Shown piece by piece: positions 36,858 through 51,976 of a stretch of DNA of 64,000 nt. Each line of letters starts with the position of its first letter. Position 1 is the first letter of the stretch. The translations under genes and the position numbers were made by a program. Under the pieces are notes generated by a model. That model was not told the origin of the DNA and ran no database searches. It was given only the letters and a program-made list of their open reading frames with translations. The stretch is from the NCBI RefSeq assembly GCF_018320785.1, contig NC_054873.1, positions 29,602,196-29,666,195 on the forward strand. Direction: 5' to 3'. The DNA is from Cheilinus undulatus (lineage: Eukaryota; Chordata; Actinopteri; Labriformes; Labridae).

Positions 36858-37691
36858 CTATTTTATAGCAGCAGCAAAGCTGAAATCAGCATGTGTGCCA
36901 AATATTTTATCCCAGTGGGTAAAATGCGGTGCAAAATTGCTGTTAGGTTTCTGATGGTGCACATCGTGTTTGCTGGGGCCTCCATAGATACCAAATGGAA
37001 TCAGACGCGATGTGGACCAGGGGAAATCATAGCCACAGTGATCTTCGATGGAAACATAAACATGCACCACCATGAAGATCCAGGTAGTGAGGAGGTGGCA
37101 TCTCAGGATCACAGGATTCAGAGTAGTCCAAAAGCCTACCGTGACCAGTTCCCAGCCACCGAGACACTGAGTGGCAAGAGCAAAGGGTGAAGAGTAGTTA
37201 TGGTGGATGGCATGGAAAGTGACATACAGCCAGCGAATCCTGTGATGGAGCAGGTGCCAGATGAAGTACTGAAAGTCAAATAGTAGAAGGTTGCCAATCA
37301 TCCCAGCAATCAGCTCCAGCATGGATGGAGCCTGTTCTGGCAGGTCTATAGGTGGCCTCCATGCCCACTGAGCCACTGATGCTGGCAGCACCAAAAACAA
37401 ATGGTTGTACAGGGTGACACCTGCACAGTGCAGCAGTGTAGAGGCTGTGGGACGACGGCCTGGTTGGATCTTGAATTGTTGCACCCATGCCAACTTATCA
37501 CCCATAATGTCACAAAAAAGAAAAGGAAGGCACAAAACAAAGTATGAAGACACAGTCAGAACAACAGGGAAAAGTGGAGATCTCAAATAATCTCTGTAAT
37601 GGAGCCGCAGGTTGTCCCACAGAGGCTGCAGCAAAGAGTCATTTCCTAAATATTTTATCCAAAGATCTACACTGATGCATGCTGGATCCAT
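36858..37691 (-). CDS. ch25hl: Cholesterol 25-hydroxylase-like protein (first copy)
   Basis: A single uninterrupted reading frame of 277 residues, as expected for the intronless CH25H family. It has the three histidine clusters of the fatty acid hydroxylase superfamily: HLLHH (146-150), HAIHH (160-164) and HDVHH (242-246), which hold a di-iron centre. Hydrophobic segments near residues 40-60, 90-110, 128-145 and 195-212 fit an ER multi-pass protein. The motifs EDHCGYDFPW and SNFAPHFTHWDKIFGT are family signatures. Mammalian CH25H makes 25-hydroxycholesterol; fish have several like-genes and I cannot tell which one this is. The copy at 45119-45955 is clearly related but diverged, so the duplication is old. 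The reading frame is intact. Confidence 0.93.
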   Translation of the reverse strand: MDPACISVDLWIKYLGNDSLLQPLWDNLRLHYRDYLRSPLFPVVLTVSSYFVLCLPFLFCDIMGDKLAWVQQFKIQPGRRPTASTLLHCAGVTLYNHLFLVLPASVAQWAWRPPIDLPEQAPSMLELIAGMIGNLLLFDFQYFIWHLLHHRIRWLYVTFHAIHHNYSSPFALATQCLGGWELVTVGFWTTLNPVILRCHLLTTWIFMVVHVYVSIEDHCGYDFPWSTSRLIPFGIYGGPSKHDVHHQKPNSNFAPHFTHWDKIFGTHADFSFAAAIK

Positions 37692-37716
37692 CTTGATGAA
37701 AAAGTCAAAAAGTGAC

Positions 37717-39333: not shown

Positions 39334-42300
39334 ATGACGACTCTGTGTAAGTTTAGCTAGCTAGATGATCATATTACTGTTTTGGGGAAGGTAAAGAAAA
39401 CTTTGGTTCTCAATAGCTTGACATTAACTCTGGGCGTGAAGTCTTTTGTCGGGAGTGTATTATTTGGGTGTCGACAGATCGATCTATTGAGCAAAATCTA
39501 ACCAGATTAAACAAACTTTGATTGGCAGTTCACACCTCACACTGGTTTATCATATGACGCAGATAAAAACAAAAATCTGGGTTAAAGTCAATTTGACTGA
39601 CCTTTGGAGGAAGTGGTTACTCATTAGAATTAGATTATCAGAACAAGTCTGCAAAAAGCCATTTGGACTCCTCTTTACATACATCTCAAACATGAAGTTT
39701 TCTGTGGTTTTGATTTGTCCTTTTTATCAAATAAGTATTTTTAAGATTCAGCTGAAATAACACTGAGCCATCCCCGTTAGAAAAAAAAAACTGCAAGTTT
39801 ATTTTAATGTTTTGTTAACTGTTCATTATAACGTGGAGAAAATGTTTGTTTTATATTTTGTTTAAAGCCATCCTGGAGTTTCAGATAGGATGCAATATTT
39901 GTATCTACAAATGTTTTTTTCTGTTTTTCTTAAACAATGAAATAATCAGACACATCTCTTAAATCTGTCACTTGTATCTTTTTATTCTGCTTAACAGTGA
40001 TGAAGACTGATGATGGAGAAAAGACGGGGGAATCAGCGCCTGCTCTTCAGGCCCAGCCACTGTGTCGCTTCTTCTCTCAAGGAAGACACTGTAATTTTGG
40101 AGCGAGATGCAAATTCCTGCACATAAGAGATGACACCAAAGTTACTGAGAAGAAGACTGGATCTCCCAGTGAAACAGAAGTCACATCTTCAAACCCAAAG
40201 GCCCCTGGAGGAAATGGGGTGAACAGGCCTCCTCCAATCAGTAATACCAGGGTTGCCTCAGCAGCTGGCCGCCGACCCTGCCGCTACTTTTTGTCAGGGC
40301 ACTGCGCCATGGATGATAGATGTCGCTTCTGGCATCCACAGCAGTTACCCAGTTTGGAGGATGTACCGGTTTCAGGCCATGATGCAAGACCTGCACAGAG
40401 GATGCCACCAGTGCCGCACCCCAATGCCTTCCAGGGGATCAAGCTGAGTGACCTGACAGAGGAGGCCTCCAAGCAGCTGCGAGACACAGAGATCAGGCAG
40501 CTGATTAAGCGTTTTCCAAAAGACCAGCTGATTACTCAGGAACGAAGTGATGGAAAAATGACTTATTACAGGGCCAGTGTTGAGGCCACCGATCCAGACT
40601 GGGTAAACATTTATTTCTTTGTTCTTTATTTTCCCATCTTTCCCTGAGGTTGGACTGAAAATCCATGCAGTCATTGTTTCCGTGGTACAGTTCAGCTTAG
40701 TTTCAGTCATTGTGTTTAATAATTGTATTAATGCAAGCTTTAGACTAATGCTAGAGCCATCAAATAGACATAAATTAGTAGGCCCCTCTGTACTGTCCTT
40801 TAACAGCACTAATTGCAAGTAGGTTTTCATCACTGAGTTGTTTATTACTACAGAATAACATGGGATTTAAAGTGAAGTTCTGATAAAAAGTTGGATGTTT
40901 TGAGGCTATATTTAAGGATGATGTAACAATAGAAAGATATATTTTCCTGATAAATTCCCTCTTATTCACTAATTGTGAAGAGAAAGGAAACACTGACTTA
41001 AAATTATGAAATGTCGAAGAGTTATTTATCTACCTAATCAGTTAATCATCCTGGTAGTGAAAACCATAACCTACAAAGTTTTCTTCTAATAATTTAGAAA
41101 CAATTCTCTTGTATGTAACATGCCTTGCTTTACAATATGTTTCAGAGATCTACAGCATAATATGTTAAAAATAATAAAATTGAATTTTTACTTGCAGCCT
41201 TTTGATCTGAAAGAAATCGACATCATGGTGAGCTTCCCAGACAATTACCCCCAAGAGGTAAGATCAGCTGCTTACAGTTACACTTTATATTTTGTGGTAC
41301 ACTTTACAGTAAAGTGTTCAACATATAAAGAATCATTCCTAACCAACTTCATGATTTTATTAGGTGTTTACGTTGGATATCCCATTAGATCAAGATCTTC
41401 CACCAGTAATGGCAAGGTAAAAGAATCTGCAGCTTATAGAAACTTTTGATGCGAATGGTTGTTTTGACATTTTTTTCCCTCTTTCTCAACAGATATGTAC
41501 AGGAAGCATCCATTGAGTGGCTTCAAGCCAAGCATGCAACCAATCAGCTTCTTGGAAAGGTAGAGCTGCTCTTCCTGCCTTTTCTTCGCTGGCTAGATCG
41601 TAGTTTGGAGCGACTGTTCACGGAAGGAGCCCGACAGGTCAGACTTCACACTGCTTGATTGTTTTCCCTTTGATCTAACTGTAATGACCTGTTGAGTACT
41701 TCTTTAGATGTTTTTTTTTAATGCTGATAACAATATTTCTCTTATTTTGCAGTTGAAAAAAGATATTGATCTAGAAAAAGCTGGGTTTCAGTTCATATCA
41801 TACAAAGAGCTGCAAGCGACAATTTGTGAAAAATCTGGAAATGATATTTCATCTGACCTTGCCTCTGACAACCCAGCAGATGATGTTAATGATGAAGGGA
41901 AAGCAGAAAAGAGAGAAGGCAAGGGAACAGTGGAGGGGGAGAAGCAAGAGGGAATAGCCAATGATGAAGGGCAGAAGCAGGAGGATGAGGAGGCCAGTCA
42001 TCTGGTGGAGAACATAAAGATCAGTGATCCCCGCAGAGGCACAGAGATTAAGCTGCTTGGACTTAGACTGGGAGAGAACACTGCCACTGTGGTTGCCCAA
42101 CAAATCACAGTTTGCCTTCAATGTAACAGGTAAAGAAAATTAACCAAATTTAAGACATCCATGCCACAAGTTGGTTTGCATGTTAAAATGACCAGGATTG
42201 AGAACTTATCTGTGTGTACTGTCTGCAGGTGTAAGGTGACTGCAGACCTGACACTGACTGGAAGGACACCCTGCACAGCTCAGTGTGAAAAGTGCAGTTC

Positions 42301-44702: not shown

Positions 44703-45118
44703 AAGAGGATCAGATTGTTGCCTTGCCAAAGAAAAAAAAAACACGATTTGATAAATGATTTCAATGAAATTTTTAAGTAAACCTAATAAATCATATTGTC
44801 ATGATCATTCAGCATGTGAAATGTTGTTTTATTTGATATTAAGAGTCTGAAAATTCTAGATGCTTTTTGTTGAATGTACAACCTTGTGCTTGTAACAGTC
44901 TGGAGCTTATCAAGGTGTTATGTCTAATGCATGTTCTTGAACAGTGTTAATCTTCTTGTGAAGGTCTGGTCATTGACACTGAGCTGCTGCTGTAGAAAAA
45001 GGCAGGTCTGTACACTTTAGAAAAAAAGTCCCTTGCGTTAGGCTTTCCATATATAAAGGCATGACTCTATCATGATCGAGAGACTTGCAGCAGAAACTTT
45101 CAGAGGTACAACAGCGAG
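44703..45118 (+). other. 3' UTR of CCCH/CHY gene and promoter of the second ch25h-like gene
   Basis: AATAAA at 44785-44790 ends the first gene. TATATAAAG at 45050-45058 begins the promoter of the next. The two same-strand genes are thus under 300 bp apart. Confidence 0.6.
45050..45058 (+). promoter_or_regulatory. TATA box of the second ch25h-like gene
   Basis: TATATAAAG stands 61 bp before the start codon. A transcription start about 30 bp downstream would give a 5' UTR near 35-40 bp. TATA promoters fit inducible genes such as CH25H. Confidence 0.7.
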
Positions 45119-45955
45119 ATGTTGAATATCAGCGAGCAGACGTCTCTGCAGCTCCTGCCCTCCAGGGTCTCAAACCGTCTTCTGCAGCCATTCTGGGATT
45201 ATTTGCTTCTGCACCACCTGCCCCTCATCTCATCTCCTTTCTTCCCTGTCCTCCTCGCTTTCTCCAGCTACTTCTTTTTTAGTATACCTTTTGCTGTGCT
45301 GGACCTGTTGGGAGACAGAGTGCCCTTTTTCTATCAGTATAAGATCCAACCAGACCGGCAGCCAACACTGGGGATGATGGCAAAGGGGTTCATGATAGCT
45401 GTGTATAATCATGTATTCTTTGTTCTGCCAGCTGTCTTAATCAGCATGTTCATCCTGCCTACACCAACCCTGCCTCAGGATGCTCCGACTCTTTATGAGG
45501 TTTTTATTGATGGACTGGCTGCACTTCTCCTCTTTGACACTCAGTACTTTATTTGGCATGTCATACATCACAAACATCAACAGCTTTACCGCTGGATCCA
45601 TGCAATCCACCACGAATATGTGGCTCCTTTCTCCTGGTCCACTGAGCAGCTTAGCATCCCAGAACTGATGACCGTTGGTTTCTGGAGCAACCTGGACACA
45701 ATTCTGTTGAAATGCCACCCTCTCACTACATGGTGCATCACAGTTTTCAGCATCTGGATGTCTGTGGAGGACCACATAGGCTACGACCTACCATGGACCC
45801 TCAACCACTTGGTGCCTTTTGGTTTGCTGGGTGGAGCACCAGCTCATGACATGCACCATCAGAAGCCGAGCAGCAACTTTGCTCCTTTCTTCAGCCACTG
45901 GGACAGAATCTTTGGCACAGCTGTCCCTCTGAAGAAAAAAACTGCCACGAATTAA
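45119..45955 (+). CDS. ch25hl: Cholesterol 25-hydroxylase-like protein (second copy)
   Basis: Single-exon frame of 278 residues. Histidine clusters HVIHH (147-151), HAIHH (161-165) and HDMHH (243-247) form the di-iron site of the fatty acid hydroxylase superfamily. The N-terminus has an NIS glycosylation motif, as the CH25H family often does, followed by hydrophobic segments near 38-62, 90-112, 128-145 and 200-216. EDHIGYDLPW and SSNFAPFFSHWDRIFGT are family signatures. The protein probably acts in the ER membrane on sterols; its exact substrate cannot be read from sequence. It differs at many sites from the copy at 36858-37691 and lies in the opposite direction, with the CCCH/CHY gene between them. 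Poly(A) AATAAA at 46229-46234. Confidence 0.93.
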   Translation: MLNISEQTSLQLLPSRVSNRLLQPFWDYLLLHHLPLISSPFFPVLLAFSSYFFFSIPFAVLDLLGDRVPFFYQYKIQPDRQPTLGMMAKGFMIAVYNHVFFVLPAVLISMFILPTPTLPQDAPTLYEVFIDGLAALLLFDTQYFIWHVIHHKHQQLYRWIHAIHHEYVAPFSWSTEQLSIPELMTVGFWSNLDTILLKCHPLTTWCITVFSIWMSVEDHIGYDLPWTLNHLVPFGLLGGAPAHDMHHQKPSSNFAPFFSHWDRIFGTAVPLKKKTATN

Positions 45956-46993: not shown

Positions 46994-49900
46994 TCAATGT
47001 AGACTCTTATTCAAATACTGCACAAACATGTTGGATATTTGTGCGGTGTTCTCTGTCGGATGCATCTTGGTGTAACTGATGAACTGGCGTCTTAACTTCC
47101 TCAGCTCTGCCATGTTGATGCTCCGGGTGAGCTCGATGTTAAAGGTCGGGTTAAGGTCAATACAGAACAAGTTGTCTGGAGTGCAAAGTGTTCTCTCAGG
47201 AAGAAAGATAACTTGCCTCAAGGTTTCCACAGTACAGCTCAAATACAGAGGGAGGTGATAGCCCGCTGACAAAGTCAAACCATGCACCTGCCATTAAAGG
47301 CTGACCAGTGTTCAAAGGAGAAAATCAAAGGGTTTGCTTCGGAGGAGGTCAGACACAGTGCAGCTGCTAGTAAATATCCACTCATCTATGAAATTTGGTT
47401 CCTCAAAACATATCCTAAAGAACTTTATTACAGCAAAGACCTTTGAAAATTAATGGCTGCCATGCCTTTCATTTATGCTCTTTGATGAACATGAATTCAT
47501 CCACCCTACCTTTGAACAAGTTGCTTAATCCAGTACTTTGCCTACTGCTGTAGAGAGGAATGACAGTCTTTGGAAATAAATCATGTAAATGTGGCTGCAC
47601 AAATCAAGCTTCTTAAAGACATTAGTTTTGAATGAAAATTGCTACTTGCTACAAAGGAAAACAGATCCAGAAAATAAACTTAAAAAGGGGGCATGTAATT
47701 GTGTTAAAAGGATATTTTTTCTGTAGCTCCTGGAACTGTGACAAGATCCCCTGGAACACTTGTCTTCTGTGCATTGAAAATTACCTGAAAAACATTTAAT
47801 ATACAGGAATTTTAATTAACCAAGATAAACAGAATGTTTTACTCCAGACCATTAAGATGGGTACACAAACATGAATTCCCATTTGCAAACGACAATTATG
47901 AAACCCAACCTGTGACGCAGGACCAAGACCAAATGTAATTACAAAACAAGACAAACAACTCGATACTAATAATGACACAACCATGAAGTTATTAGTCTAA
48001 AACTGAAGGACACCGTGGGGATGACGCTGGTCAAATCTTTTAAATGAGCGCTGTAGTGATAATCAGAGTTCTACTCCTGTTTTCACCACTTCACCTTTTT
48101 CGACATATGCATGTGTATTTAAAAGATGCTGACACATTTAGAGAAGTCAATACTGACACTGGACAAAATAATAGGTTTCTATTCAGCTAATGTGCTGCTA
48201 GTTCTTTTGAAACACTCATCAATTTTATTTTCTTGGGTTTCTTAAAATACCCCCCATTCCTTATAGAGATCTTTAAAGGTATGACGACTGAGCAGTTAGC
48301 TGTAATTATTTGCCTGCTTACTGGTTCTACTTAGTGGCATTTGTCTGTTGATTGCTCTCAGCCAATAAGCTGCTGTTTGTTCTCTTCCCTTGATTTGCTG
48401 CTCATGAGGTCTTACGTCAAACGACTGAACGGTAGACAAGAGAAAAGAATTATTGGGATTTTAAAAGGATATAGACAACTTAGGTCAACTGGATTGCTAA
48501 ACCATGACTTGTGCATCCGTGTTTACAGAAACTGTATCATTAAATTATTTTAATTTGTGTTAAATAACCTTAATGACTGATTGGAAAGAGACTTTCTGGT
48601 TTTCTGGCAATTCCACAATTTTAAGTGCTAAGCTGGATATATAAGCATCTCTGAGCTCGTTGCCCTCTAGCCATTATTTAAACTTGACAGCTGATGTAAA
48701 CACTAGTCTCTAAATAAGGTTAATTGCCACAGCTCAGAATGTAGAATTCGTAGACCCTACCAAGGGGCTGTAAATACCCGTTTCAAGATGCAATGTGAAA
48801 ACTATTATGAAGTATTTTTTCTGAACATTAACTTATATTTCTTTTTTCATCATGAAAGCTGACATTGCGTCAACAGACTGTTAAAAACAACATCCAGGAA
48901 CAAAGAAAAATCTAATTAACTGATATTAAAATCAGCAAAACATAGAAACCCATACCATTAACACTTCTTGCGTGATTTTGTCCAACTCATACAGAAAGTT
49001 TGTGGAAGACAATGGTTGCTGTAGAGAAGAAGAACAGAAAAGTTACCACCTAAAAGTCAAGAGGGTGGAATGATATAGCACACTCTTGCAGCTTTGTCAA
49101 CTGAGTATTGTGTCCTTATAAATATGACCTTACACTTTGTGTAGACTGGTTCGGTGGGGGTGCTTTCCTTTTGAAAAGTGCATCAGAGATGGCTTCAAAT
49201 GGCAGGGTTTCATCCTTCGGTATAGTGAAGAGAGGACTATCCCATCTATTTCTGGAGTCTGGAGCTTCAAACCTCAGCACTAGAGCATCAAAGCTATGCA
49301 GGACAAAAAAAACACAAAAACAAATCCTGACAATGCTAATTTTTTGACACTCACAGGAAGAGATTCTTACTTACATGTCTTGTGCATACTGCTCAGAAGG
49401 ATTTCTTTCAGTATTCCACGTTGAGCTCATTTCATCTGACGTCAAACAGTACACCTTTATGAATAGAGATCAGTTATTTTGACTGAGCTTAGGTATTGTT
49501 GTAGATATTAAAGCAATCATTTGTCTCTGATACTTACCAGGCAGTGTGGTGTCTGTGTGTGTTTGATGAGACAGAACAGTTCATACCGGTAACCTGAAAA
49601 GGTTGTCAGCTTGAGTGTAAAAGCTTATTAAATGTAATATTTTAGCACAGCACACTGTGTTAGCAAGTCTTACCTTTTATGTAATTTAATGAATCCAAAA
49701 TAACAATGTCATCCTTGTTGACCTTCCTAGACAACAGATACATAGATGTTAAAATGGCTGTAGGGGGAGAATATTACTAAGCAACTTAATGCAAAAACAG
49801 ACTTGAAAACCCACCTCTCCACTTCAGCTTTCAGAGCTGCTCTGACATTTTTCTCCTTTTGGGAATCTGCAAGGTATCCAGCAATGTTAAAAAGACTACA

Positions 49901-51008
49901 TGCAAATGTCTGAAAACTTGTAGGAATCCAGAACTTGCTTGATTATGCTGTTTGTGACTCCAACATAAAAAAAACTAGAGATGTGCAAAAGGTAAGAAAG
50001 GTTATTTCAGTTTTTCATCCCTTTTCTAGTTCTCTTCAGTAAATCAACCATTGCCTTTCACCAGATTGATTCCTCCAGTGACTTTAAGTGATCTGTACAT
50101 TTGAATACTTAACAGGATTTCTGTCTAACTGATCTTATACATTCCACCCACCTTTATTCTTAAATCAAATAAGTGTATTTAACAGGGGACAGTGGGGACA
50201 ATCAAACGCCAAACCCCATTCAAAATTTCAATGAAATTAAAATTCGAGCATTTTTGATTCAAAAACACATTCGAGTTGCACTGTTTCGATTAATAGTTCA
50301 ACACAGGACTTCAGAGTGAGGGTCTTAGAATGGATGTTTTATTAGAAAAGCGTATTGGTTCCTCAATTAAGGTTTGCATTTCACTCATCCTGGTTCACTG
50401 CAAAGCACTCGTCCGGTGTTACGGTTTGAAGAGTGACCGTGTTGACATGTGACTGAATTGAACGCGTCTCTGTCTGTCGCAGTTAAAAACGATGTCGAAG
50501 ACGATGCGCGTCCCAAAATACTGCCTTGTTTTTTATTTATTTTTGTAAAAGGCAATTTCTGGTGGTTTTTTTGACACTATAACAAAAACGAAACAACGAG
50601 GCATTTAATATTTTTTTTCTTCAGTATCAGTTGTAACAACACGCGTCCTCAATTAACACGGTGACTTTTTCAACCATAACACCGGTAAAATTATCGTGAA
50701 ATTTTGCTGTTGTATTAGACATATTGCCATTTTGTCAGTTGTTAACATAAAACAATGAATATCTAAGTTAACATGAAATATTGACAACTCATTGACGGCT
50801 ATTAAACACGGTATAAACCACATGAATGAGTACAGTGCTAATATTAGCTTAACTTGCCTGCGTAGACAGTGTTTTTCTCAACGTCAAGGGTTCCGTCTCC
50901 CACGACATGAACCTTTCTGCCTGTGTTTTGTTTGAAATACTCCTTCAGTTCTTCAGCCCTTCGAGTTTTACCACTACAGGGGTAACCACACATCACAATA
51001 AGAGGCAT
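46994..51008 (-). CDS. kti12: KTI12, P-loop factor for Elongator-dependent tRNA wobble-uridine modification
   Basis: Nine coding exons in transcript order: 50858-51008, 49815-49866, 49674-49726, 49538-49593, 49375-49454, 49134-49293, 48956-49018, 47716-47784, 46994-47137; 275 residues. It starts MPLIVMCGYPCSGKTRRAEE, with the P-loop GYPCSGKT at residues 8-15. A Walker-B-like segment VILDSLNYIKG follows, then RFEAPDSRNRWDSPLF and the end RRQFISYTKMHP...QYLNKSLH, all matching KTI12. KTI12 is an ATPase that binds tRNA and supports Elongator in cm5U34 modification. The protein is shorter than human (354) because a variable middle region is small. Intron 1 has a GC donor (GCAG|GCAAGT). Intron 8 is AT-AC (ATATCCTTT ... 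CCTTAAC ... AC), and only this join aligns gaplessly with the human protein. Both unusual sites keep the frame. Confidence 0.93.
47138..47715 (-). other. Minor-spliceosome (U12-type) AT-AC intron of kti12
   Basis: On the minus strand the donor reads ACAGAAAAA|ATATCCTTTT, a perfect U12 AT-AC 5' splice site. The 3' end reads TTGACCTTAACCCGACC then TTTAAC|ATCGAG. CCTTAAC fits the U12 branch-site core and 12 bases separate it from the exon, the usual U12 distance. No polypyrimidine tract precedes the AC. Joining GCTACAGAAAAA to ATCGAGCTCACC gives PGATEKIELTRSINMAEL, aligned without gap to human PGTTEHLRFTRPLTMAEL. Length 578 bp, phase 0. Confidence 0.88.
50851..50857 (-). other. GC-AG intron donor of kti12 intron 1
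   Basis: Minus-strand GTCTACGCAG|GCAAGTTAAG matches the AG|GCAAGT consensus of GC donors. The phase-1 end joins the exon at 49866 to give VYADSQKEKNVRAALKAE, which parallels human VYGDSAREKALRGALRA. Confidence 0.85.
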
Positions 51009-51536: not shown

Positions 51537-51976
51537 TTATACTGACATGTCCAGTGCTTGTTTTTGTTGAGGAACTTGGGCAGTTTTTAACATCTGGATC
51601 AGCAACGCCTGTTGGTCCTCTGCTCCATACAGAGGGCTTTCATCTTCAGTGGGAACCTTTACATCTTCAAAGGAAGACTCCATCAAGGAGCTATCCACAA
51701 CACTTTTCTTTCCCATGAAATGTCCTTAATCAATTACAAACACATCACAAAATATGTTCAAAGCTCAGGAAAGAACACAACATAACTTCCAACATTAATA
51801 ACACTGATCTTACCTGTTGCCCACAGATTCCCTCTTGGATTCACTTTGATCTTTGACACTTTATTTCTCAGTTCAGTTAAATCAAGAGTCATTGAAGAAG
51901 CCATTGCCATGTATGAGATGAGGATGAAAGAAGACAGGAGTCTTGCTCTGCAGATCGTTGCCAACGTGCCAGTCAT
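51537..51976 (-). CDS. nmb: Neuromedin B precursor
   Basis: Two coding exons, 51814-51976 and 51537-51724, give 116 residues. The first 25 or so residues are a signal peptide rich in Leu, Ile, Met and Ser. The peptide GNLWATGHFMGKKS follows KIKVNPR: the decapeptide GNLWATGHFM is identical to mammalian neuromedin B, with a Gly amide donor and KK cleavage site. The intron splits the peptide between ATG and HFM, as in mammals. The rest is an acidic propeptide. Neuromedin B is a bombesin-like neuropeptide acting on NMBR. The stop used here, after DMSV, comes by reading on from the second exon; mammals have a third coding exon, so the last residues are less certain. Its neighbour znf592 fits human 15q25. 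Confidence 0.93.

Follow-up and report, generated by a model that had tools for sequence, protein, structure and literature searches.

A predicted AT-AC intron of the U12-type class at the end of kti12 in Cheilinus undulatus

The last intron of kti12 in Cheilinus undulatus begins with AT and ends with AC, and in all likelihood it is a substrate of the minor (U12-dependent) spliceosome. We propose that U11 would recognise the donor ATATCCTTTT of this intron, intron 8, that U12 would pair with its CCTTAAC, and that exon 9, the source of the last 47 residues, would follow exon 8 in phase 0. Intron 8 is very probably a further example of the established U12-type AT-AC class, and from the gene model we infer that kti12 RNA is actually spliced at this join. 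The initial annotation had placed an AT-AC intron near the 3' end of kti12 at 47138..47715. These coordinates are exact, the intron running from 47715 to 47138 on the minus strand.

Gene model and the join of the last two exons

The window, that is, the whole 64-kb stretch of DNA analysed, carries a complete kti12 gene on its minus strand (51008-46994). It consists of 9 exons, which encode 275 aa in a single open frame once they are joined (Table 1). Exon boundaries were picked by eye, and the check on them was the single open frame together with a full-length Pfam match. The joined protein scores 340.5 bits against Pfam KTI12 (PF08433; cut-off 22) and spans positions 1-271 of the 271-position profile. 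Its N-terminus bears the P-loop NTPase motif GYPCSGKT (residue 8), and its sequence matches structure 6qp0 with E 9.2e-23; this entry bears the name putative chromatin binding protein, and PMC11995267 gives it as Kti12 of Chaetomium thermophilum. Judging by its coding sequence, kti12 of the window is apparently an intact multi-exon gene. Among pattern matches in prokaryote (23) and virus (5) contig collections, no encoded relative was confirmed. Two introns of kti12 have non-GT donors, intron 1 (GC-AG) and intron 8 (AT-AC); the ends of the remaining six of eight are GT-AG.

Table 1. Features of kti12 and of a neighbouring gene (positions of the window)
Feature	Coordinates	Strand	Details
Neuromedin B-like bombesin-family gene	~51976-51546	-	GNLWATG at 51832, HFMGKKSV at 51722, intron between; Pfam Bombesin 35.2 bits
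kti12 exon 1	50858-51008	-	start codon; P-loop GYPCSGKT
kti12 intron 1	50857-49867	-	read as GC-AG, donor GCAAGT
kti12 exons 2-7	49866-49815, 49726-49674, 49593-49538, 49454-49375, 49293-49134, 49018-48956	-	five GT-AG introns between
kti12 intron 7	48955-47785	-	GT-AG, 1171 nt; contains second ATATCCTTTT at 48472
kti12 exon 8	47784-47716	-	69 nt, ending ...PGATEK
kti12 intron 8	47715-47138	-	AT-AC, 578 nt, phase 0, last intron, predicted U12-type
Intron 8 U12-type 5' splice site (predicted)	47715-47706	-	ATATCCTTTT; from sequence
In-frame TAA upon intron 8 retention	47706-47704	-	protein would end ...PGATEKISF, 231 aa
Intron 8 branch-site core (predicted)	47156-47150	-	CCTTAAC; from sequence
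Intron 8 3' splice site (predicted)	47139-47138	-	AC; from sequence
kti12 exon 9	47137-46994	-	residues 229-275 and stop; basic K242, R244, R245, K252

The AT-AC join reads ...PGATEK/IELTRSINMAEL... in phase 0. When scored alone, the exon 7-8 piece matches positions 190-226 of the KTI12 profile, its final residue K being unmatched, and exon 9 matches positions 229-271, its first residue being left out. Extrapolated, the two pieces would meet at profile 227/228 with neither gap nor overlap. A gapless join in phase 0 had initially been described against human KTI12; it holds against the Pfam KTI12 profile, which was the reference used here in place of the human protein.

Altogether, 122 in-frame stop-free joins were listed (25 GT-AG, 14 GC-AG, 28 AT-AC, 29 AT-AG and 26 GT-AC). 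Nine of the 122 were scored, along with the skipping of exon 8. The AT-AC join 47715/47138 gave the best score of these nine joins and the exon skip, its C-terminal piece reaching 85.6 bits against KTI12. The AT-AG join 47715/47132, which uses the same donor, reached 78.0 bits, two GC-AG joins 71.5 and 72.8 bits, five GT-AG joins 63.6 to 72.7 bits and exon 8 skipping 50.3 bits.

These scores bear on the conventional reading, a GT-AG or GC-AG intron whose donor would be a weak site within exon 8 and whose acceptor would be an AG close to exon 9. We consider it very improbable, even if 39 in-frame stop-free joins of these two kinds exist. The seven of them that were scored lie at 63.6-72.8 bits against 85.6 for AT-AC, and all 39 use donors inside exon 8, so that residues before the end of PGATEK are lost. 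The major-class donor consensus is GTRAGT, and GT donor contexts such as ACA/GTTCCA and CTT/GTCACA are poor by comparison. The stretch from PGATEK to the in-frame TAA (47706-47704) is free of GT. The earlier statement that a GT-AG model fails is supported, with 7/39 GT/GC-AG joins scored and all of them lower. Equally real is the overlong open frame reported upstream of the 3' exon: ORF 46994-47293 runs 52 codons upstream past the exon 9 acceptor, and only the last three codons of this upstream frame enter the KTI12 match. A gene finder that allows only GT-AG introns would get the last exon of kti12 wrong.

Splice signals of intron 8 and their chance expectation

The consensus of U12-type 5' splice sites is RTATCCTTT, and the donor of intron 8 agrees with it. 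The branch consensus is approximately TTCCTTRAC near the 3' end of the intron; the branch region of intron 8, GACCTTAAC, contains the 7-base core CCTTAAC exactly, while the two preceding bases deviate. The core is separated from the end of the intron by 12 nt, CCGACCTTTAAC, which puts the last intron base 13 nt from the second A and 14 nt from the first. The initial annotation had matched the donor, CCTTAAC and an AC 12 bases further on to the minor-spliceosome consensus; the core proved exact and the spacing was confirmed. The termini AT...AC are one of the pairs allowed for U12-type introns (AT-AC or GT-AG). According to PMC3584512, mixed ends (AT-AG and GT-AC) are disfavoured, either branch A is usable, and the optimum distance from the branch to the 3' splice site is 11-13 nt. 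The spacing in intron 8, 13 nt from the second A, lies at this published optimum (PMC3584512).

Removal of the AT-AC intron by the major spliceosome would place it in the U2-type AT-AC class. Such introns exist, but in zebrafish AT-AC ends make up 0.02% of U2-type introns as against 22% of U12-type introns (PMC7367187, Table 2). U12-type introns are marked by the want of a distinct polypyrimidine tract. The pyrimidine fraction at -20..-4 of the intron 8 acceptor is 0.71, inside the range of the seven other kti12 introns (0.59-0.88), and therefore provides no argument against a U2-type intron. As PMC3584512 describes, the U12-type class is defined by 5' splice site and branch sequence, not by terminal dinucleotides, and both the donor and the branch of intron 8 are U12 motifs. 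We thus regard removal by the major spliceosome as extremely improbable and keep the assignment to the minor one.

Compared with vertebrate U12-type AT-AC introns, intron 8 is alike in its ATATCC donor, CCTTAAC core, AC end and short distance from branch to acceptor, and also in being a lone minor intron among major introns of its gene. It is unlike them in being in phase 0, in being the last intron and in belonging to a gene whose human counterpart is reported as single-exon. Phase 0 is avoided by minor introns (about 22% on average, PMC10639083), and intron 8 goes against this bias.

There are two aspects of chance expectation to be considered. Firstly, ATATCCTTTT occurs three times in the 64-kb window (plus strand 22090; minus strand 48472 and 47715), with 0.17 expected per strand; the donor string by itself is not unique within the window. 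Secondly, there is the combination of signals. On both strands of the window, intron 8 has the only branch and AC that pair with an ATATCCTT donor within 1.5 kb, and two donors, 48472 and 47715, are within their range. We simulated 200 strands of 64 kb with a second-order Markov model and searched them for ATATCCTT, a CCTTRAC at 40-1500 nt on its 3' side and an AC at 8-17 nt beyond the branch A, which yielded 0.095 such pairs per 64-kb strand. For the place where homology requires an intron, counting 24 possible donor starts and allowing branch and AC a stretch of 56 bases, the joint chance of the signals is about 9e-7, a post hoc estimate that assumes independence.

The second exact ATATCCTTTT on the minus strand, at 48472 inside intron 7, has 12 bases in common with the real donor and no adjoining exon end. 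Segmental duplication was rejected as its source, the identity run being just 12 bases. No repeats of at least 14 bases linking 48472 and 47715 were listed, a minimum length that would miss a 12-base repeat. An Rfam scan of the window gave 0 families at gathering score.

Intron retention and the C-terminus of Kti12

From the gene model it follows that the C-terminus of Kti12 depends on minor splicing, as the initial annotation had put it; the functional sensitivity suggested along with it would be a further step. The predicted retention product, 231 residues long, still matches the KTI12 profile at 1-229 and lacks residues 229-275, the 47 C-terminal ones. Retention of intron 8 would accordingly be expected to deprive the protein of the basic residues in its C-terminal helix. 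Junction-dependent decay requires an exon junction downstream of the stop. The retained transcript would have its stop in the last intron and no exon junction after it, and would presumably escape this decay. For comparison, PMC8034651 describes that premature-stop isoforms arising under inhibition of minor splicing escape decay and bind polysomes; the isoforms in question arise by exon skipping.

What such a protein would be worth can be suggested from yeast, as studied in PMC11995267. There, Kti12 is needed for the wobble-uridine modification by Elongator, its C-terminal domain binds tRNA, and neither domain by itself supports function. Combined substitutions of basic residues in helices alpha9/alpha10 (4KRA and 7KRA) abolish the binding of tRNA as well as the wobble modification that depends on Elongator; the alpha10 residues tested include 281, 283, 284 and 291 (PMC11995267). 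The basic residues 242, 244, 245 and 252 of exon 9 are spaced as these four, with a constant offset of 39 (yeast positions from PMC11995267), a correspondence that is a match of spacing and not an alignment.

A refinement of our main reading would be that intron 8 is U12-type yet often retained under normal conditions, the 231-residue protein being a regulated product. The in-frame stop arises three codons into the last intron, as such a product would have it, and the length of intron 8 (578 nt) may be set against the minor introns of zebrafish zrsr2 mutants, where the median is 451 bp for retained introns and 1398 bp for others (PMC9501576). The single AATAAA in intron 8 lends no weight here, as random stretches of 578 nt from the window carry one in 43% of cases; for this reason an intronic poly(A) signal was dropped as a regulatory switch. 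We deem regulated retention unlikely.

Surveys of minor introns provide a wider frame. In zebrafish, 662 U12-type introns in 612 genes were reported, 218 of them retained without Zrsr2 (PMC9501576). The main texts of PMC9501576, PMC13216214, PMC6865273 and PMC8034651 do not name kti12. None of the papers searched linked KTI12 to minor or U12-type introns, and species-wide intron databases may list intron 8.

History of the gene and its neighbours

Human KTI12, which shares its protein name with the gene of the window, presumably belongs to the same family, PF08433. The gene of the window has eight introns, whereas human KTI12 is reported to consist of one exon and to lie within intron 2 of TXNDC12 (PMC3192792), and it has been called a retrogene (PMC5408686). 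With one exon reported for the human gene, kti12 cannot be on human lists of minor-intron genes. The simplest reading is that kti12 of the window represents the intron-bearing parental form, and a retrocopy would then have replaced parental kti12 in mammals.

Although absent from human minor-intron lists, fish kti12 could add to the phenotype of minor-spliceosome mutants, and this link would tie minor splicing to the Elongator modification of wobble uridine (mcm5s2U). We put forward, quite tentatively and with more doubt than belief, a broader scenario in which Elongator-dependent wobble-uridine modification in the lineage of this fish is tied to the minor spliceosome via kti12. Faltering splicing would leave intron 8 retained and produce a truncated but stable Kti12 from which the tRNA-binding helix is missing, and mammals would have escaped when the intronless retrocopy replaced the parent. 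If this were true, tRNA modification would be defective in fish models of minor-spliceosome disease but not in patients.

Upstream of kti12 and on the same strand lie an nmb-like bombesin-family gene (at least 2 exons) and a ZNF592-type zinc-finger gene. In humans, we take NMB and ZNF592 to be neighbours on 15q25, whereas TXNDC12 is on chromosome 1. A six-frame search of the window for W[CS]G[APHYE][CK], a pattern that a TXNDC12 active site would fit, gave no match; as a test of whether a TXNDC12-like gene is there, it is a narrow one.

Other genes of the window include two fatty-acid hydroxylase genes (PF04116), each a single open frame, at 36858-37715 on the minus strand and 45065-45955 on the plus strand, about 7 kb apart; we assume that they resemble cholesterol 25-hydroxylases. 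Further, an exon of a CCCH zinc-finger protein (PF00642) is located at 39946-40647 on the plus strand.
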